Assembly (NCBI GenBank): GCA_019637265.1 | Contig: JAHBVY010000001.1 | Span: 1,860,001-1,924,000, forward strand | Direction: 5' to 3' | Source: Polyangiaceae bacterium | GTDB taxonomy: Bacteria > Myxococcota_A > Polyangia > Polyangiales > Polyangiaceae | DNA: 64,000 nt | Position numbers and translations under genes: made by a program | Notes under the pieces: generated by a model | What the model saw: only the letters and a program-made list of their open reading frames with translations | The model's database searches: none | Told to the model about the DNA's origin: nothing | In this document: one piece after another, positions 9,529 through 45,756 of the stretch | Layout of the letters: each line of letters starts with the position of its first letter | Numbering within the stretch: position 1 is the stretch's first letter

Positions 9529-9960
9529 CTACCCCTGCTCGGGGCCGAGCAGCGCCTGCGTCAAGTCGTCAGGGATCCGCCGGGGGCGCCCGGCGTCGTC
9601 CACGCAGCAGAGCATCGTGTCCCCGCGGCAGAGCAGCTCCTCACCGCGCAGCACCTGATACGAGAAGCCGACGCGCACCCGGGTGAGCACCGCGAGCCGC
9701 GCCACCACCTGGAGCTCGTCGTCGAAGCGCGCCGAGCGCAGGTACTCGAGGCCGGCGGACACCACCGGCAGGTGCCTCCCCTCCGCCCAGCGCGCGTAGA
9801 TCACCCCGCGGCGGCGCAGGTACTCCACGCGCGCGAGCTCGAAGTAGCTGAGGTAGGCCGCGTGATGAACGATGCCCATCAGGTCGGTCTCACCGAAGCG
9901 CACCCGGAGCGATGCTCGGGTCTCGGCGTCGGGGGTGAGCGGCGTCTCCGGTACTTTCAT
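9529..9960 (-). CDS. Acyl-CoA thioesterase, 4-hydroxybenzoyl-CoA thioesterase/YbgC type
   Basis: 143 residues from the ATG at 9960; a frame back to 10014 lacks support. RVRFGETDLMGIVHHAAYL carries the hotdog catalytic Asp (D26) and the following GIVHHAAYLSYFELAR helix typical of this family; the length is standard. It is cytosolic and hydrolyses acyl-CoA thioesters. It converges with the acyl-CoA synthetase gene (49 bp between stops), so a linked role in fatty-acid handling is plausible but not shown. Confidence 0.9.
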   Translation of the reverse strand: MKVPETPLTPDAETRASLRVRFGETDLMGIVHHAAYLSYFELARVEYLRRRGVIYARWAEGRHLPVVSAGLEYLRSARFDDELQVVARLAVLTRVRVGFSYQVLRGEELLCRGDTMLCCVDDAGRPRRIPDDLTQALLGPEQG

Positions 9961-31283: not shown

Positions 31284-32972
31284 CTAGCTATCCAGCAGCG
31301 ACTGCACCGGTTGACCTGGCTCCGCCTTGACCAGGGTCGCGGCGAGATCCAGCGCGTCCGGCATCAAGCCTTGAACCTGCGACACCACCTGCTCCACGAG
31401 GTGGCGCGCCTCGTCGATGCCGGGGCCGCTCATCGCCACCGCGAACTTCAAGGGGCTGATGCGCCCCGCGGTGACCGGCGTGATGCAGAGCAGGAGCATC
31501 TCCGTCAGCTCGATCACGCGCTGCGCGGCGCGCCTCAGCGCCAGCATCTCCAAGATGGTCGGGCGCTCGCTCACCAGGCGGTTCGGGCCGCGCACCTCAT
31601 AGCGCGCGACCGACAGGGGTACGTCGTTCCACTCGGAGAACTGCAGCTCATCCTGCAAGCTCCGGATCAGCTGGTCGCGCTGGAGCAGGCCGGTGAGGCC
31701 ATCGCGGCGCCGAAGGTAAGCCTTGGCGCGCTCGTGCTGTGGGGAGCCGTTCTGGAAGCTGACGAGCTTCACGCGGCACTCACCCAGCTGGATCTCGTTG
31801 CCGTGAAGCAAGGTGACTGACTTCTTGCGATCGTAGCTGTGGTCAGCGTACGTGCCGTTGGTGCTCCCCAAGTCCTCGAACACCCAGGAGCCCGAGCGCC
31901 AGCGCGCCACCGCGTGCTGACCCGAGACGGTGGCCTCCGGCACGGAGATGTCCTGATTGCTGCGCCGCCCGAGGGTGACCTCCGGGGTGCTCAGCGGGAA
32001 CAGGTGACCGGCGGCGTCCGTCGCGTTGGTGGCGAAGGTGACGAGCAGCGCCTGCGCGCCGGGGGTGAAGGACTCCGTGATGGAGCGGCCGAGCGGTGGC
32101 CCGGGGGACAGGCGCTCACGGGGGATTTGCGCCTGGCTGGTGGTGAGCGCGGAGGGGTTGAAGAAGCGCATGTGGCGCGCCTCGGTACGGAGCGTCGGGT
32201 CCTCGCTGAGGCAGCGAAAAATCTGCTTGATCTCGTCGACGCTGAGCCCAGCGGGCACGTCGAACATGATCTGCTGGCGCATCGGCTTGGCGCGCGGCCG
32301 GGAGCCGGGCTCGGGGACGCGGCAAGTCCACATCTCCCACAGCGTGAGGCCCAGCGCGTAGATGTCGTCCTCCGCGCTGGCCCCACCGGAGCGCAGCCGC
32401 TCCGGCGCCATGTAGTTCGGCGTGCCCCCATCGGGCGGCGCCCCAGGTCGCCGCGCGCTGAGCCGCGCGCGCTCCTGAGCGAAGCCGAAGTCGAGGATCA
32501 CGGCTTTGTCGGCGGTGACCATCACGTTGCCCGGCTTCAAGTCCCCATGGACCAAGCCCTGCGCGTGGATGGCCGCCAAGCCCGCGCTGGACTCGCTCGC
32601 GATCTTGCGAAACTCGTCCGCGGTGTAGCCGCCCTGCGCCTTGCGCCGCCGGATGTGGGTGTGGAGCGTCTGACCCGCGATGTGCTCCATCACCAAGATC
32701 GGGCCCCAGGGGCTCGGCGCCAAGTCATGCACCCGGCAGACGTTCGGGTGACTGACGCTGCGCGCCAGGAGCAGCTCCTGGCGCAGCGCCTCGTCGTCCC
32801 CGGGCATGCGGCTCTCTTCCCGCACGATCTTCAGCGCCACCGTCTGCTGGGTGCTGCGGTCGTATGCCAAGAACACCTCGCCCATCCCGCCCTTGCCGAG
32901 GCTCTGGCGGATCTCGTAGCGGTCATTGACGATGGTGCCGTGACCGAGGGGCGGCAGGTTGCGTGCGGTCAT
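31284..32972 (-). CDS. Ser/Thr kinase - FHA - degenerate GGDEF-like fusion
   Basis: 562 residues, ATG at 32972. The kinase domain is at about 15-285: LGKGGMGEVFLA, VALKIV, then HGDLKPGNVM and DFGFAQ. The catalytic-loop HRD is HGD, which is often tolerated, so the kinase is probably active. The FHA domain is at about 330-405, with VTLGRRSNQDI, S-x-x-H in VSGQHAV, and DLGSTNGTY (phosphothreonine binding). The C-terminal part, about 412-562, begins AYLRRRDGLTGLLQRDQL, the typical D-x-LTGL-x-R opening of GGDEF domains. No GG[DE]EF motif follows, so it is unlikely to make cyclic di-GMP. No membrane helix. It diverges from the riboswitch-controlled lipoprotein. Confidence 0.9.
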   Translation of the reverse strand: MTARNLPPLGHGTIVNDRYEIRQSLGKGGMGEVFLAYDRSTQQTVALKIVREESRMPGDDEALRQELLLARSVSHPNVCRVHDLAPSPWGPILVMEHIAGQTLHTHIRRRKAQGGYTADEFRKIASESSAGLAAIHAQGLVHGDLKPGNVMVTADKAVILDFGFAQERARLSARRPGAPPDGGTPNYMAPERLRSGGASAEDDIYALGLTLWEMWTCRVPEPGSRPRAKPMRQQIMFDVPAGLSVDEIKQIFRCLSEDPTLRTEARHMRFFNPSALTTSQAQIPRERLSPGPPLGRSITESFTPGAQALLVTFATNATDAAGHLFPLSTPEVTLGRRSNQDISVPEATVSGQHAVARWRSGSWVFEDLGSTNGTYADHSYDRKKSVTLLHGNEIQLGECRVKLVSFQNGSPQHERAKAYLRRRDGLTGLLQRDQLIRSLQDELQFSEWNDVPLSVARYEVRGPNRLVSERPTILEMLALRRAAQRVIELTEMLLLCITPVTAGRISPLKFAVAMSGPGIDEARHLVEQVVSQVQGLMPDALDLAATLVKAEPGQPVQSLLDS

Positions 32973-33294: not shown

Positions 33295-33470
33295 CATGAC
33301 GGGCGCCTCTCGAAGGCGAGGGAAGCCGGTGCGACACCGGCGCGGCCCCCGCCACTGTGACCGGCGACGACGGCGGCGCAGCTCACGCTGCGACCCACTG
33401 GGCTCAGGCCTGGGAAGGACCGCTCGAAGGATGACCCGGGAGCCAGGAGACCGAGCCTCCGAGAGCAACC
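33295..33470 (+). promoter_or_regulatory. Cobalamin (adenosylcobalamin-type) riboswitch
   Basis: All diagnostic blocks of the B12 aptamer occur in order: GGGAAGCCGGTG then CGACACCGGC (33321-33341), CCCGCCACTGTGA (33348-33360), CCCACTGGG (33393-33401) with CTGGGAAGG (33410-33418), and the B12 box GATGACCCGGGAGCCAGGAG followed by ACC (33430-33452). Spacing is normal. It controls the beta-propeller lipoprotein starting at 33594. The boundaries of the outer stem are approximate. Confidence 0.96.
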
Positions 33471-33506
33471 CCATATCGCGCTGCGGGGTGTCAGTGCCGG
33501 GTGTCT

Positions 33507-33590
33507 GCGGGAGGTGCGCTTGCGCCCCGCCTGCCTCCACCTGCCTGCCCCTTCGGCGCGACCATCGCGGCGGGCGATGAAGGCAGGATC
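33507..33590 (+). promoter_or_regulatory. Probable riboswitch expression platform (Shine-Dalgarno sequestration)
   Basis: The likely ribosome site GGCAGG (33582-33587, 6 nt before the ATG) is complementary to CCTGCC, present twice upstream (33540-33545 and 33544-33549). A GCGGG / CCCGC hairpin (33507-33530) could compete. This suggests translational control by hiding the ribosome site when B12 is bound. The pairing is read by eye. Confidence 0.5.
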
Positions 33591-33593
33591 GAC

Positions 33594-34946
33594 ATGAAGC
33601 AATACTTGATTACGAGTGCAGTGGTTTTGGCGTGCGTCGTGGGCTGCAGCGACGACGAAGACTCGAAGCGCCCCGGCGGCTCGGGCGGCAACGCGGGGAC
33701 GGCCGGTACGGCCGGCACCGCAGGCTCCGGGGGGACCGCAGGCGCGGGCGGCACCGCGGGTACGGGCGCCGTGGGTGGCACCGCGGGCACCGGCGCGGCG
33801 GGCGGAACCGCGGGCACCGGTGCTACGGGTGGCGTGGGTGGCACGGCGGGCACCGGCGGCACCGGCGGCATCTCGGACACCCCCGCGCTGATCGCGGCGG
33901 TCACGGACTACGGCTCGGCCACGGAGTTCGTCAGCGTATCGCTCAGCGGCACCGCTCACACGCCGCTCCGCGTGTCCGATGGCGACGCCGTCTCGGCCGT
34001 GAGCGGCGACCACGCCTTCGTGATCGAGCGCGGCAACGCGGCGCTCCACGTGCTGGATACGCAAGGCGCCGCGGCCCAGACCATCGACTTGAGCGGCGCG
34101 GTCCCGGGCTCCAGCTACCTGAACCCGGTGGGCGTCGCGGTGGCGGCCAGCGGCACCGCCTACGTCCCGCTACAAGCTGCCTCGCACATCGCCGTGGTGG
34201 ACCTCGCCGGCGGCACCGTCACGGGTACCCTCGATCTGAGCGAGTTCCAGCACAGCGAAGACTCCGACGGCAGCAGCGAGCCCGATCACATTTGGTACGA
34301 CGCAGCCCGGAACCGCATCTGGCTCACCCTGGGCCGCATCGACCTCAACACCCCAGCGGCGCCGGACTACCAGGTGATGTGCGTCGGTTCGAGCAGCCTG
34401 CTCCTGGCGCGCGACCTCGACACCGACACCTGGGTCGACCTCAACGGCTCAACCGACGGCGTCGCGCTGGAGCTCCCGCAGATCAACCCCACCGCGGTAC
34501 ATTACCACGCGGCAAGCGACACGCTGTACCTGCTGAACACGGGCTGCATGGAGAGCGACCGCACGGGCCACGGTATCCTCTCGGTGAACCTCGGCACCCT
34601 CGCCGTCACCCCCGAGGTCAGCTTCACTGGCGGTGAGTTCTACGCCCAGCTCGTCTGGCTGACTGATGGAGCGCTGATCAAGCGCTTCGCCGGCTTCAAC
34701 ACGGAGTGGGTGCGCTGGGCGCCCGGCACGAGCGCGCTCGGCGCGTTGGTGGACTTCATGCCGACCTCCGCGGTCGCCGGCGCCGACGGCCAGCTGTACG
34801 GCGTCGACGCGCTGGTCAGCACCGAGGGCACCGTCTTCGAAGTGGTCCGCGTGGCACCCACGGACGGCGAGCGCACCGTGATCGCCAGGAACCCCTTCGC
34901 GAGCGACGATCTCGAGTTCCTGATCGGCACCTCGTATCGCCCCTGA
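33594..34946 (+). CDS. Riboswitch-controlled beta-propeller lipoprotein (BtuG-like candidate)
   Basis: 450 residues from the ATG at 33594 (GGCAGG 6 nt upstream); an earlier in-frame start at 33501 would sit within the riboswitch leader and is rejected. Lipoprotein signal with lipobox VVGC (Cys18), a Gly/Thr/Ala stalk (about 28-95), then a domain of about 355 residues. Its repeating blades resemble YncE/PQQ-type propellers: NPVGVAVAASGTAYVPLQAASH, HIAVVDLAGGTVTGTLDLS, HIWYDAARNRIWLTLGRID, YHAASDTLYLLNTG. The only obvious regulation is the cobalamin riboswitch directly upstream, so the gene is turned on when B12 is scarce. Bacteroides BtuG is also a surface beta-propeller lipoprotein and captures B12 for BtuB. 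No btuB or btuFCD lies nearby. The B12-binding role is inferred. Confidence 0.85.
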   Translation: MKQYLITSAVVLACVVGCSDDEDSKRPGGSGGNAGTAGTAGTAGSGGTAGAGGTAGTGAVGGTAGTGAAGGTAGTGATGGVGGTAGTGGTGGISDTPALIAAVTDYGSATEFVSVSLSGTAHTPLRVSDGDAVSAVSGDHAFVIERGNAALHVLDTQGAAAQTIDLSGAVPGSSYLNPVGVAVAASGTAYVPLQAASHIAVVDLAGGTVTGTLDLSEFQHSEDSDGSSEPDHIWYDAARNRIWLTLGRIDLNTPAAPDYQVMCVGSSSLLLARDLDTDTWVDLNGSTDGVALELPQINPTAVHYHAASDTLYLLNTGCMESDRTGHGILSVNLGTLAVTPEVSFTGGEFYAQLVWLTDGALIKRFAGFNTEWVRWAPGTSALGALVDFMPTSAVAGADGQLYGVDALVSTEGTVFEVVRVAPTDGERTVIARNPFASDDLEFLIGTSYRP

Positions 34947-34976
34947 GGGATCCACTCTGTCGCGGCAACGGGTGGC

Positions 34977-35037
34977 GGCCACCGCGCCTAGTAGGGGCGG
35001 CCCCCGGCCACCGCGCCTAGTAGGGGCGGCCCCCCGT
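34977..35037. repeat. Tandem GTAGGGGCGGCC palindromic repeat, two copies
   Basis: GGCCACCGCGCCTAGTAGGG then GCGGCCCCC occurs twice in direct tandem about 30 bp apart (34977 and 35007), and the second ends in CGTGGCCGCCC, which folds back on GGGGCGGCC. It lies 30 bp after the propeller gene and may help end its transcript. Confidence 0.8.
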
Positions 35038-35155: not shown

Positions 35156-37051
35156 CTAGCTCAAGTCACGCGGATCCAACTCACACCAGAGCCACAGCCC
35201 GGCGCCGCTCAGGCGCGGCGAAGCGCCGCCGAGCGCGCCAGACAGCGCACCTTGCGTCACCGGCGCGGCGCTGCTCCATTCCGTCAGCGCACCGCCCGAT
35301 AGCGCGCCCTGCGTCAGCTGCGCGGCGTCGCCGCATTCCGTCAGCGCATCATACGATGCACCGCTTGACAGCGCACCGCCCGACAGCGCGCCCTGCGTCA
35401 GCTTCACGCCCCAAGCACCCCAGAGCCAGCTCACGAGCTGGCCCACGACGCCCAGCGCCACACCGCGCCCGAGCAGCTCCGTGAGCGGGCTACCGCCGGC
35501 GCTGGTGCTCACCGCGACGGGCATGAGCCGCGCACCGCCGAGCGCCGCGCGCACCCGCTCCACCGCGACCTCGAGCCCGCCGAGCTCGTCGATCAAGCCG
35601 CGCTCATGCGCCGCGCGCGCGCTCCACACGCGCCCGCGCGCCAGCGGTTCGAGCTCCTCGAACGCCTTGCCGCGCGCCGTCGCCACCGACTGCACGAAGC
35701 GCCGGTAGCCCGCGTCGATCAGCGCCTCCATGCGCTCGGCCTCGCTCTCCTTCAGGCGCCGGAGCGGCGACATCATGCCCGCGTGCTCACCGCGCGCGAT
35801 GCGCTCCACCCGCACCCCGAGCTGCGAAGCCAGGCCCTCCACGGTGACGCTCGCCGCCACCACCCCGATCGACCCCGTGACGCACGCGGGCTGCGCCACG
35901 ATGGCGCTCGCACCGAGCGCCACCATGTAGCCACCGCTCGCCGCCACATCGCCCAGGTAGGCCACCACCGGCTTCTCCGCCGCCAGGCGCTTCACCGCGC
36001 GCAAAATCCGATCCGAGGCGAGCGCGCTGCCGCCGCGCGAGCTCACGTGGAGCACCACCCCCATCACCTTCGGATCGTGCTGCACCTCGGCGAGCACCTC
36101 GCGCACGTCGTCGTCCACCGCCAGCACGCCGAGCGGCGCGCCGCCCTGCGCCTTGCTCACGATGGCGCCAGAGAGCTGCACCACGGCGATGTGACGCTTG
36201 CGGAAGAGCGGCCGGAGCGCGAGCGAGCGGCGCGCCGCGTAGCGCCCGAGCGGCAGCACCGGAGCACGCTCACCCGCGGCGCGCCCCGCGAGCTCCCCGA
36301 GCCGCCGCTCGAGCTCGTCGTCGTCCAGCACGCCGTCCACCAGCTTCAAGGCCTCGGCCTCCTCCGCGTCGTACGGCGAGCGATGGATCCACGCCTCGGC
36401 CTCCTCACGGCTCACCCCGCGCCCCTCCATCAGGCTCGTCACCAGGCGCTCCCAAGAGTCATCCAACAGCGCGCCGAGCTGCTCCGCCTGCGCCTCGCTC
36501 ATCACCTCGCGGCTGATCGGCTCCGCGGCGGTCTTGTACTCGCCGCGCGCGAACACCCGCGGCTCCACCCCGAAGCGATCGAGCACCCGCCGCAGGTACG
36601 GCGACTCCACGGAGTAGCCGAGCGGCAGCACCCAGGTCTCCGGCGCCAGGTACACCTGGTTCGCCACGCTCGCGAGGTACAGCTCGCGCCCCGAGGCGCC
36701 CATCGGCAGGTAGGCTACAAGCAGCTTACCTGACTTGCGCCAGTCCTCGAGCAAGCCGCGCAGGCTCTGGGTCGCCGCGGCGCCCGCGCCGACGTCATGT
36801 AAGCTGACCACCAGCCCCGCGACCCGCGGATCGCGCGCCGCGAGCGCGAGCGCGCGCCGCACCGCCGCCAGCGAGGTGGGGGCCGGCCCGCGAGCCCAGA
36901 AGCGCCGCCGCCGCGCGAGCTCCACCACGGGGCCATCCAGCTTCAGGCTCAAGAAGGCGCCGGGGGGCGCGGCCGCGCGGTAGCGCAAGGCACGGAGCGG
37001 CCACCACAGGACGAGCCAGCAATTGACGAACAGGGACCACAGGAGTCTCAC
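35156..37051 (-). CDS. sppA: Signal peptide peptidase SppA, 67K type
   Basis: 631 residues if translation starts at the GTG at 37051 (AAGGG 8 nt upstream), giving MRLLWSLFVNCWLVLWWPL as the membrane anchor; ATG 37075 and a frame to 37174 are alternatives. Two tandem S49 domains. The N-terminal one has ARGEYKTAAEPIS, carrying the catalytic Lys. The C-terminal one has VAYLGDVAASGGYMVALG with the catalytic Ser, and GSIGVV. Inner-membrane protease that degrades cleaved signal peptides. The last 85 residues are a low-complexity tail with three LTQGALSGG-type repeats, absent from the usual SppA. Confidence 0.93.
   Translation of the reverse strand: MRLLWSLFVNCWLVLWWPLRALRYRAAAPPGAFLSLKLDGPVVELARRRRFWARGPAPTSLAAVRRALALAARDPRVAGLVVSLHDVGAGAAATQSLRGLLEDWRKSGKLLVAYLPMGASGRELYLASVANQVYLAPETWVLPLGYSVESPYLRRVLDRFGVEPRVFARGEYKTAAEPISREVMSEAQAEQLGALLDDSWERLVTSLMEGRGVSREEAEAWIHRSPYDAEEAEALKLVDGVLDDDELERRLGELAGRAAGERAPVLPLGRYAARRSLALRPLFRKRHIAVVQLSGAIVSKAQGGAPLGVLAVDDDVREVLAEVQHDPKVMGVVLHVSSRGGSALASDRILRAVKRLAAEKPVVAYLGDVAASGGYMVALGASAIVAQPACVTGSIGVVAASVTVEGLASQLGVRVERIARGEHAGMMSPLRRLKESEAERMEALIDAGYRRFVQSVATARGKAFEELEPLARGRVWSARAAHERGLIDELGGLEVAVERVRAALGGARLMPVAVSTSAGGSPLTELLGRGVALGVVGQLVSWLWGAWGVKLTQGALSGGALSSGASYDALTECGDAAQLTQGALSGGALTEWSSAAPVTQGALSGALGGASPRLSGAGLWLWCELDPRDLS
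35230..35405. repeat. Coding tandem repeat in the SppA C-terminal tail
   Basis: A unit beginning GCGCACCGCCCGA occurs at 35286 and 35372 (86-bp spacing), with a partial third copy before them. It encodes TQGALSGGAL-type repeats just before the stop. The 3' end looks expanded by tandem duplication. Confidence 0.75.
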
Positions 37052-37137
37052 GCGGCAACCCTTCGGCGGTGACATCCCCTCGTCAACGGGCGCCTCGCCC
37101 CCCGCGCGTCGACTGGCCCGTGGGCCGACAGTGACTC

Positions 37138-37155
37138 GCCAAACCCCCAAAAAAA
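37138..37155 (-). repeat. T/G-tract element, type B-like, reverse
   Basis: GCCAAACCCCC followed by A7 on the plus strand. It lies about 90 bp upstream of the sppA start, between divergent genes. Confidence 0.85.
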
Positions 37156-37342
37156 CCAAGGGGGTAGAAGCCAACCCACCCTGACGGACTCGCCACGAAC
37201 GCCGCAGCCGACCCTGCCCAAAGTGCCACGAACAGGTCGCGATATCTCACCCCTGGTGCAAGACCGGTGTGTCCCCGCCGTGTCACCCCGCGCACGCGTC
37301 GTGAGGCGTGCGTCAGGCAGGAGCCTGATATATGGGGAGGTC

Positions 37343-42901: not shown

Positions 42902-45756
42902 CAGAACTCCCCTCGCAAGCCGAGGCTCGGGATCAGCGGCAGGCCCTCTTGGTAGCTCCGGCGGCTGTAGTTGTAGTTGTAGAGGATCCCCTCGCGCGCC
43001 GCGTTGTTGTAGACGTTCTGCACGTCCAGGTAAGCGCTGAGGCGCCAGTCCTCGAACTGCCAGCGTTTGTCGATGCGCACGTCCAGCTGATGGAACAGCG
43101 GCAGCCGCTCGCTGAAGGCAGGCCCTTGGATCGGCGCATAGGAGCCCGCGTCCGCCGCGAAGAGCCCGGCGAGCGCCGGCGGGCTCAGCGCTGGCGTGTC
43201 GAGTGATCCCGAGATCACGCGGAACCGCGCGCCGAACTCCCACCCGCGGCCGAGCCGGTAACTGCCGAGCATCGTCAGGTTGTGCGTCTGATCGTACTGG
43301 AACAGGTACTGCTCCTCATCCGGCGACTCGCGGCGCACGCTGCGGCTCAAGGTGTAGGCGACCCAGCCGAAGAAGCGGCGGTCCGGCTTGTACTTGAGGA
43401 GCGTCTCGAGCCCCATGGTGTAACCCTCACCCTGGTTGCCGTACTCGTAGCCCCCGGCGCTCGAGGGCGCGCGACTGACCAGGTTGTCCAGGTCCTTGTA
43501 GAACGCCTCCACGCCCACCTCGATGTGGCGTGAGAGCTCCTGCTCCACGCCCACCGCGTAGTGGAGGGCGCGGTTCGACTCGAGCCCCGGCGTCCCGAAG
43601 ACCTGATCCGTCTCCTGGGGTTGCGGCGGCTGGTAGTAGACGCCCGCGCCGGCCTTCACCGTGGTGCGGAGCGCCGCGCGACCGCTCGCCTCGTCCCCAT
43701 CGAGGATCGGGTGCACGATGTCGTAGCGCGCGTTGAGGCGCGGGCTCAGATCCGTCTGCCCGGCGTCGCGCGCGTGATCCAAGCGGAGCCCTGGCACCAC
43801 CCGCATGCGCGCGCTGGGGGACAGCTCCGCCTCCGCGTACCACGCAGGGCGATACCCAACCCCCTGACGAGACTGCTCCATCGGCGGGCGCGCCGCGAAC
43901 GGGCCTGGGTCCGGCTCACCCGGCCGCGGCGGGTTCGGCGCCCTGACGGTGAAGTCATAGGGCATGACGGTGGTGTCCATGCCCACGTTCAGCTTGGCGC
44001 CCGAGCCGAGCGTCCACCCGAACTCGTTCCGAACCTCGATCGGCACCAGGTTCAGATCGAACAGGAAGTTCCCGACGGAGAACGCCAGGTTCGTCTCCCC
44101 CACCGAGAGCATGCTGGTGAGCTCGAGCTCCGGGGTCAGCTTCGATTGGTACAGCATCTGCGCGCGGTAGAAGCTGGTGGAGAAAGACAGGTTACCGCCG
44201 AACGCCGGATCTTCGGCGATGGGGTCCTTGATCAAGATCTCGAAGCGATCGTTCGAGCCGTAGAAGCGCAAGCTGAGCCGGCTGCCCTTCGGGGTGCGGT
44301 GCTCGGCGATCAGCTGGTAGTCGTCGTACACCGGCGCGCTGGTGACCCCGGCGTCCGCGGCCTCGAGCACCGGCTTGAGCCACACATCGAACCAGCTGCG
44401 GCGCCCCGCCACCGCGAAGCTCCAGTTCTTGAGCGGGCCGATCGGCCCTTGCAGCATCAAGCGGGCGTCGATCAAGTCGACCTGCGCCATGCCGTGGTAG
44501 CAGCCCGTCTCCTCCGAGGCCTTGCCGTAGGGACCACTACAGCTCGTGTCCGGCGAGCGCAGCGCGACGTCCACGATGCCGCCCATGAACGTGCCGTAGC
44601 GCGCGCTGAAGTTGCCCGGGTAGAAGTCGATGCGATCGAGCAGCTCCGTCGGCACCACGCTCGAGAGGCCACCGAAGTGGTAAATGAGCGGGACGTTGCT
44701 GCCATCCACGAAGGTGGCGCTGTCCTGCGGTGAAGAGCCCCGCACGATGAGCAGCCCCGCCAGCCCCGGCGGCCGCGCCACGCCCGGCAAGCTCTGGAGC
44801 GAGCGCAGCGCGTCGCCGCCGGTGCCAGGGATGCGCGCTATCTCCCGCCGCGCGACGGTGCGCCGCGTCACCTCGCGCGGTGGGCGCACGCCCTGCACCG
44901 TCACCTCTTCACCCTCGACCTCGGGCGGCAGCGCGTAGTCGAACTCGTACTCGCGGCCCGCCTCGATCTCGAACGGGAAGCGCCCCGGCGAGTAGCCCGG
45001 CGCGCTGATCTCGACGTCGTATTTCCCTGCGGGAAGGCCCTGCACCTGCCAGCGGCCCTCGGCGTCGCTGGTGGTGCCGGTCTGCACCCCCGCGTTGCTG
45101 GTGATGACGATCTGCGCGCCGGCGAGCGGACCGCTGGTGCCAGCGATGCGCAGCGTCCCCCCGATGTTGCCGGTGGTGGCGCCGGGCGGTGGCTCCGCGG
45201 GCCCTTCCTCCCCCGTGCCCTCGGGCTCCGCCGGGGTGAGGGTGAAGGCGTACTGGTAGTGGATCTTTGCGGCGATGGGCTGACCATCTCGAGTGGCCGG
45301 CTCGAACACGAACTTGAGCGCGGCCGCCTCGGCCGCCTCGTCGAAGCCGTGCCCCGCGGGCTCCACCGCCTTGGCGGCGGTGACGCGCCCCGTTTTGTCG
45401 ATGGTGAGCTCCAGGACGACGTTGCCCTCGATGCCCTCTTCCTGAGCCTTCTCAGGGTAAGGCGCCGACTCGAAGTGCTTCAGCTTGGGGGGCACCACCA
45501 CCGGCGCCTTGGGCTTCTCCCCGGGCTTCACCACGGCGCCCGCCGAACCGCTGGGGACCGAGCCCGACCCACTCTCTTGCGCCAGCGCCGAGGGCGCGAC
45601 GAGGCCAAGCCCCAACAGCACACTGAGCCCCGCGCGAGCGCCAGCAACAGAGCGCACGCCAGCAACAGCGCGCGGCGCAGGCGCTGCGCGGTGAGCCGAC
45701 CCAGGGTGAGTGTTCGCCTCGTTCAGGCGCGGGGACCGATGGTTGGGGATCCTCAT
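42901..45756 (-). CDS. TonB-dependent receptor with built-in TonB C-terminal-like domain
   Basis: 951 residues, ATG at 45756 (GAGGGAAG 9 nt upstream). The signal peptide ends near residue 60 (LVAPSALAQE). A TonB-C-like domain is at about 88-175 (YPEKAQEEGIEGNVVLELTI, DKTGRVTAAKAVEPAG, LKFVFEPA), normally found on the energiser TonB. A carboxypeptidase-regulatory-like domain is at about 190-275 (LAGAQIVITSNAGVQTGTTS, GLPAGKYDVEISAPGY), a plug at about 290-410 (GGDALRSLQSLPGVARPPGL, LLIVRGSSPQDS, RYGTFMGGIVDV), and the barrel to the C terminus (LIPSLGLRGEF). Outer-membrane active transporter; substrate unknown. A coupled lipoprotein gene follows. Confidence 0.92.
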   Translation of the reverse strand: MRIPNHRSPRLNEANTHPGSAHRAAPAPRAVAGVRSVAGARAGLSVLLGLGLVAPSALAQESGSGSVPSGSAGAVVKPGEKPKAPVVVPPKLKHFESAPYPEKAQEEGIEGNVVLELTIDKTGRVTAAKAVEPAGHGFDEAAEAAALKFVFEPATRDGQPIAAKIHYQYAFTLTPAEPEGTGEEGPAEPPPGATTGNIGGTLRIAGTSGPLAGAQIVITSNAGVQTGTTSDAEGRWQVQGLPAGKYDVEISAPGYSPGRFPFEIEAGREYEFDYALPPEVEGEEVTVQGVRPPREVTRRTVARREIARIPGTGGDALRSLQSLPGVARPPGLAGLLIVRGSSPQDSATFVDGSNVPLIYHFGGLSSVVPTELLDRIDFYPGNFSARYGTFMGGIVDVALRSPDTSCSGPYGKASEETGCYHGMAQVDLIDARLMLQGPIGPLKNWSFAVAGRRSWFDVWLKPVLEAADAGVTSAPVYDDYQLIAEHRTPKGSRLSLRFYGSNDRFEILIKDPIAEDPAFGGNLSFSTSFYRAQMLYQSKLTPELELTSMLSVGETNLAFSVGNFLFDLNLVPIEVRNEFGWTLGSGAKLNVGMDTTVMPYDFTVRAPNPPRPGEPDPGPFAARPPMEQSRQGVGYRPAWYAEAELSPSARMRVVPGLRLDHARDAGQTDLSPRLNARYDIVHPILDGDEASGRAALRTTVKAGAGVYYQPPQPQETDQVFGTPGLESNRALHYAVGVEQELSRHIEVGVEAFYKDLDNLVSRAPSSAGGYEYGNQGEGYTMGLETLLKYKPDRRFFGWVAYTLSRSVRRESPDEEQYLFQYDQTHNLTMLGSYRLGRGWEFGARFRVISGSLDTPALSPPALAGLFAADAGSYAPIQGPAFSERLPLFHQLDVRIDKRWQFEDWRLSAYLDVQNVYNNAAREGILYNYNYSRRSYQEGLPLIPSLGLRGEF

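Follow-up and report, generated by a model that had tools for sequence, protein, structure and literature searches.

A lone beta-propeller lipoprotein behind a cobalamin riboswitch in a Polyangiaceae genome: a likely BtuG-like corrinoid-capturing protein

In a 64,000-nt stretch of a Polyangiaceae genome (hereafter the window, meaning the whole stretch of DNA that was analyzed), a cobalamin riboswitch is followed by a single gene encoding a lipoprotein with a beta-propeller domain. What could such a protein do for the vitamin B12 economy of its host? In Bacteroides, BtuG serves as a lid on BtuB and has a very high affinity for B12 (PMC10404256, PMC6143338). BtuG-type B12 capture has been described as a specialty of Bacteroidetes that is linked to gut competition; Wexler et al. 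(2018; PMC6143338) reported btuG homologs as exclusive to Bacteroidetes, with none detected outside by BlastP, and the lipoprotein export signal of BtuG as specific to the same group (PMC6143338). The answer that we consider likely is that the window protein is an outer-membrane lipoprotein that would capture corrinoids at low B12 and feed them to a BtuB-type receptor. Computation shows the riboswitch, the lone gene, the lipoprotein signal, a BtuG-like predicted fold, a riboswitch linkage conserved in relatives, a sister clade linked to BtuB, and the presence of MetH without MetE or CbiC. The features of the locus are as follows.

33307..33466, + strand: cobalamin riboswitch aptamer including the P1 stem (RF00174 core at 33320-33452, B12 box, P1 pairing)
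33467..33593, + strand: leader or expression platform, from the aptamer to the start codon (possible anti-ribosome-site and ribosome-site-like stretch; mechanism not established)
33594-34946, + strand: lipoprotein gene (450 aa; signal peptide, lipobox, stalk, propeller domain)
33594..33647, + strand: signal peptide and lipobox VVGC, with Cys18 as the lipidation site (from the sequence)
33675..33869, + strand: Gly/Ala/Thr-rich stalk, approximately residues 28-92 (low-complexity sequence, repeated in tandem at the DNA level)
33870..34946, + strand: beta-propeller domain with a BtuG-like (seven-bladed) fold, stop codon included (AlphaFold2 model, PDB matches)

A cmscan search of the entire window returned a sole Rfam match, to the cobalamin riboswitch family RF00174, at positions 33320-33452 of the + strand (74.9 bits versus a gathering score of 31.5; E = 1.3e-16). 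The 3' part of the B12 box, GAGCCAGGAGACC, is exact and is found inside the core match (approximately 33440-33452), and the folded strand allows a P1 stem around the aptamer (33307-33466). The claim of a complete aptamer with a B12 box, made in the initial annotation, thus held. The way in which the switch acts is not established. A ribosome-site-like stretch, AAGGCAGGA (33580-33588), precedes the start codon at 33594, and CCTGCCT occurs at 33530-33536 and 33540-33546, either copy being able to pair with AGGCAGG. This pairing appears in a local fold (z = -0.81); the longer leader RNA folds with the ribosome site mostly open. A 7-base complement to the ribosome site was reached in 11.5% of the shuffles of the window leader and in 22.6% of those of the leader from a same-genus relative. 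A sequestration hairpin is possible and can form locally, yet is not better than expected by chance, and the initial claim that an upstream CCTGCC hides the ribosome site remains weak. No terminator was found in the leader on the strand of the gene. Repression of the lipoprotein gene by B12 is inferred from the known behavior of RF00174, without expression data.

The lipoprotein gene stands alone because both its neighbors, the upstream gene for a Ser/Thr kinase with an FHA domain (31284-32972) and the downstream gene for an S49 peptidase (35156-37174), are located on the opposite strand. Gene calls come from a simple GC-frame script, and no btuB or BtuFCD gene adjoins 33594-34946. According to the initial annotation, the gene is lone, its lipoprotein product has a Gly-rich stalk, and no BtuB or BtuFCD gene is adjacent; these statements held. 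The lipobox Cys is nearly invariant in a 29-member alignment, and the all-beta domain behind the stalk comprises ~358 residues. No Pfam family exceeded its cut-off in the window protein or in 28 homologs (the same 29 members); the weak matches to Glu_cyclase_2 and Mala_s_1-like families fell below it and were not accepted as identities.

Several other features of the window were recorded. A perfect 29-bp tandem duplication, CGGCCACCGCGCCTAGTAGGGGCGGCCCC, directly behind the lipoprotein gene (34976-35034) resembles an interspersed repeat; its core has no further occurrence within the window. A 57-bp tandem repeat in two copies (35236-35348) falls within the S49 peptidase ORF, at its 3' end. The TonB-dependent receptor encoded at 42904-45756 (- strand) carries an N-terminal TonB_C domain and a CarboxypepD_reg domain in one protein, a fusion of an energy-transducer domain with a receptor; given this architecture and the lack of a match from the riboswitch-linked receptors discussed below, it was rejected as a partner of the lipoprotein.

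Conservation of the riboswitch linkage was assessed in 97 related genomes, searched by protein sequence with the RNA disregarded. The label "Polyangia" for these relatives rests on the initial annotation and on two relatives, one a "Myxococcales bacterium" and the other an "uncultured delta proteobacterium" MAG. Matches due to the Gly-rich stalk alone (weak matches to unrelated lipoproteins) were excluded, and family counts were taken from a propeller-only profile. A related-locus search of genome contigs found no relatives with the single window protein and no sufficiently conserved stretch with a 13-row alignment; with six closer rows it returned two loci only, which were later used for the structure models. 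Loci were counted if they had a full propeller and readable upstream DNA (~27), the counts being made by hand from the result tables with a possible error of one or two. A cobalamin riboswitch is found directly upstream at approximately 20 of these 27 full-length propeller loci, or in 20 of 23 genomes, including the same-genus relative (77.4 bits). Further riboswitch-bearing members were identified in other genomes (L195, L197, L205, L208, L210, and L212). At ~7 loci of the window protein's clade, including those in genomes G044 and G089, there is no riboswitch above the cut-off. Four propeller lipoproteins of the same clade form a tandem array (L078:4943-10911 in G034:C133), which was counted as one locus with ~460 bases upstream and has no riboswitch in its readable upstream DNA.

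Counted from the RNA side, each genome carries approximately 1 to 6 cobalamin riboswitches above the cut-off, and for 45 of 97 such riboswitches whose downstream DNA was read (from 55 genomes), a propeller gene of the family follows within 3.6 kb on the same strand, a TonB receptor being also present at 16 of these 45 loci. Some loci in this set of 97 were fetched for holding a propeller, which biases the fraction somewhat upward. Class I ribonucleotide reductase is encoded behind 14 of the 97.

The propeller-only profile converged at 67 sequences, with some loci represented more than once. In the maximum-likelihood tree, the window protein falls in one clade, where its group of six has 99/97 support; the propellers linked to receptors lie opposite it across the midpoint root, the root split itself being weak (86/66). 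The two propeller clades are homologous (hhalign probability, 98.7). Genes of the sister clade are located directly behind a TonB-dependent receptor gene in riboswitch operons of many genomes (e.g., L100, L101, L153, L155, and L189), which is evidence beyond that in the initial annotation; the BtuB-linked members belong mostly to this clade and not to that of the window protein. In one case (L072), a sister-clade propeller is accompanied by BtuC/D/F-type genes, in the order riboswitch, TonB receptor, propeller, FecCD permease, ATPase, periplasmic binding protein (BtuF-type), and DUF7676 protein, and two members of the window protein's own clade are encoded within 5 kb after this operon. A B12 uptake operon would be expected to have this layout, which provides the strongest argument for a role of the family in B12 uptake.

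The propeller call in the initial annotation, guessed from the sequence, was upheld when residues 91-450 were modeled with AlphaFold2 from an alignment of the window protein with five homologs (mean pLDDT, 81.7; pTM, 0.85). In a Foldseek search of PDB with this model, BtuG entries took ranks 1 to 7 (8bn0; E = 6.8e-11). In VIA-align they took ranks 1 to 10 (8bmx_D; Z = 24.9, 304 aligned, rmsd 3.6 A, 14% identity), followed by 6-phosphogluconolactonase-type propellers (Z = 23.3) and YncE (22.7), which leaves a margin of just ~1.6 Z units over unrelated seven-bladed propellers. A second model, with the homolog L106 as the target (pLDDT, 84.1; pTM, 0.86), was based on the same six aligned proteins and so is not fully independent; it ranked BtuG at positions 1 to 14 in Foldseek, and in VIA the YVTN propeller 1l0q (25.6) tied with BtuG (25.3). 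According to these models, the margin of BtuG over other propellers is small, the Foldseek ordering places BtuG first in both cases, and the solved structures nearest to the window propeller are predicted to be those of BtuG. In sequence comparisons against PDB, the profile of the window protein's clade matched 1l0q (E = 7.6e-10) and YncE (3vgz; E = 3.2e-5), with BtuG chains at merely E = 0.75-1.5; the sister-clade profile placed BtuG chains at E = 0.92-1.4 and had hardly any other matches. The window protein is not a proven member of the BtuG family: its sequence match is not significant (E ~1), and common descent can be neither proved nor excluded from the profiles, so the initial statement that the protein evolved separately from BtuG has not been shown.

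The three computational checks that bear on the initial annotation all favor it: the RF00174 match is significant, structure prediction and fold search yield a propeller with BtuG as the nearest PDB entry, and riboswitch-plus-propeller pairs are present in most relatives. Its central proposal, BtuG-like capture of B12 at the cell surface, is supported by computation, with B12 binding and surface exposure remaining inferred.

The host genome (5.7 Mb, 98.5% complete) carries three cobalamin riboswitches above the cut-off, of which that in the window scores best; the others precede a class I ribonucleotide reductase and a second propeller lipoprotein. The latter pair (L092:8426-9694 and 9761-9918, in G000:C15) is lone, belongs to the sister clade, which gives the host one member from each propeller clade, and is divergent from genes that, by our reading of the adjacent sequences, we take to encode methylmalonyl-CoA mutase. 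The ribonucleotide reductase (NrdA/NrdB) riboswitch was observed at L091:6311-9795 (G000:C12). A fourth match (27.3 bits, G000:C12:17739) is below the cut-off and on the strand opposite to the surrounding genes, and it was not counted. MetH is present in the host genome and both MetE and CbiC are absent, so the host probably depends on imported corrinoids; overall, CbiC is absent from 37 of the 39 genomes searched. A BtuB-like TonB receptor, unlinked to the window gene, is encoded in G000:C12 (~123.8-126.0 kb); it is 36 to 41% identical to the riboswitch-linked receptors, and its best NCBIfam match is TonB-B12, below the cut-off. BtuC- and BtuF-like genes, a BtuFCD-like candidate, were found in G000:C1 (~1.782-1.785 Mb). 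Neither location has a riboswitch above the cut-off.

Other lipoproteins were also noticed in cobalamin-riboswitch operons of the related genomes. A second family (24 matches, including L072:13337-14044, L097:10321-11115, L102:5168-5884, and L164:6112-6852), with the motif VVSLG.GG.I...F....VDGPG.DF.VFENAF, is often encoded between the riboswitch and the TonB receptor and occurs near 20 of the 97 riboswitches. It is related to the Leptospira lipoprotein lipo_LIC13355 (E = 1.5e-14); its profile matched BtuH2 (7BIZ) weakly (E = 0.31), and this match was lost with a trimmed profile. A third riboswitch-driven family of ~400 aa (L133, L138, L140, L143, L156, L157, L161, L162, L167, L171, L178, and L182) spans 12 genomes (G004, G006, G012, G015, G019, G025, G026, G029, G030, G032, G066, and G079). 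The one member scanned has no Pfam match, no credible PDB match was found for the family, and kinship with the propellers was rejected, as hhalign aligned the signal peptide only; the family could conceivably represent another corrinoid binder. A fourth, small group (L139:516-1931, L144:6529-7701, and L164:7388-8047) consists of mutually matching proteins with an apparent internal repeat.

In the proposed mechanism, high intracellular cobalamin would cause the leader riboswitch to shut the lipoprotein gene off, and low cobalamin would allow its expression. The exported lipoprotein would be anchored in the outer membrane by the lipid at Cys18, with the Gly-rich stalk serving as a flexible linker, and its propeller would catch corrinoids outside the cell, as BtuG does in Bacteroides. 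These would then be handed to a TonB-dependent receptor encoded elsewhere, for which the G000:C12 protein is a candidate, and carried inward by BtuFCD-like proteins, possibly those encoded in G000:C1. Contact with a BtuB-type receptor, like binding and surface exposure, is an inference.

The most serious rival is a propeller lipoprotein of the generic YncE/YVTN type that has entered the B12 regulon and is required at low B12 without binding it, for example, in adhesion or envelope stress. In its favor, the clade profile scores 1l0q and 3vgz far better than BtuG (7.6e-10 and 3.2e-5 versus ~1), propeller folds are much alike, and 1l0q ties with BtuG in the second VIA comparison. We nevertheless regard it as unlikely, as BtuG ranks above all other propellers in Foldseek for two models, a sister-clade propeller sits between a TonB receptor and BtuC/D/F-type genes, and the riboswitch linkage is kept across divergent genomes. 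A surface binder of some other ligand tied to the B12 economy (cobalt, heme, or a siderophore) appears more remote still. The ferrichrome-binding lipoprotein XusB (9hqk) and the zinc-handling AztD (6n01) are among the matches of the L106 model, and one homolog has a weak AztD match; however, BtuG outranks both, the aptamer is of the cobalamin type, the host receptor closest to the operon receptors best matches TonB-B12 (albeit below the cut-off), and the genome lacks CbiC, so that it would gain little from cobalt for de novo synthesis. Finally, the riboswitch could be degenerate or misplaced and no longer act on the lipoprotein gene, in line with the lack of a terminator on its strand and of a convincing ribosome-site hairpin. 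Against this, the score is more than twice the cut-off, the core is conserved, and both the same-genus relative (77.4 bits) and most of the clade retain the linkage, which leaves almost no room for this possibility.

Corrinoid capture thus remains the preferred reading. A bolder version of it, less likely than not, would have a Polyangia-type apparatus for surface B12 capture parallel to that of Bacteroides, in which BtuB-type receptors are loaded by propellers of both clades, by a BtuH-like lipoprotein, and by one or more additional lipoprotein families driven by riboswitches. The lone-gene clade would then be a free-standing corrinoid trap working in trans that arose independently of BtuG. 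No report of a myxobacterial BtuG counterpart, or of a Myxococcota cobalamin-riboswitch protein of this kind, was found in the literature searched, which left out most subscription papers. Contrary to the earlier statement, B12 capture by such propeller lipoproteins is probably not limited to Bacteroides. If so, surface corrinoid capture would be a wider strategy, spread through Polyangia-type genomes that mostly lack CbiC, and dozens of unannotated "hypothetical lipoproteins" would become testable B12 binders. Genes that lie behind cobalamin riboswitches and match no family model offer a search route for such proteins.

Among known systems, E. coli YncE and the YVTN propellers (3VGZ, 1L0Q) are seven-bladed proteins of the same general type and the best sequence matches of the clade profile, but they are not lipoproteins of a B12 regulon and mostly rank below BtuG in structure. 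BtuH (B. thetaiotaomicron BtuH2, 7BIZ) and the DUF4465 proteins BtuJ1/J2 also bind B12 as surface lipoproteins encoded at riboswitch loci (PMC8941943, PMC13398666), although they are not propellers. The closest counterpart is BtuG itself (BtuG1-3 of Bacteroides thetaiotaomicron; PDB 3DSM, 8BMY, 8BMX, and 8BAI), whose B12-contact residues include Trp194, Trp272, and Tyr316 (PMC10404256). It shares with the window protein the N-terminal lipid anchor, the seven-bladed propeller, and control by a cobalamin riboswitch, features that in the window protein are predicted from sequence and model, at 12 to 14% identity in the structural alignment and without a significant sequence match. The window protein differs from BtuG in its long Gly-rich stalk, its lone gene, and a host outside Bacteroidota. 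BtuG-like working is likely on this evidence, without binding data and with membership by descent not shown. The adjacency to btuB in a B12 transport operon, typical of BtuG, is absent at the window gene, whereas its sister clade in the related genomes has the TonB-receptor neighbor in common with BtuG.
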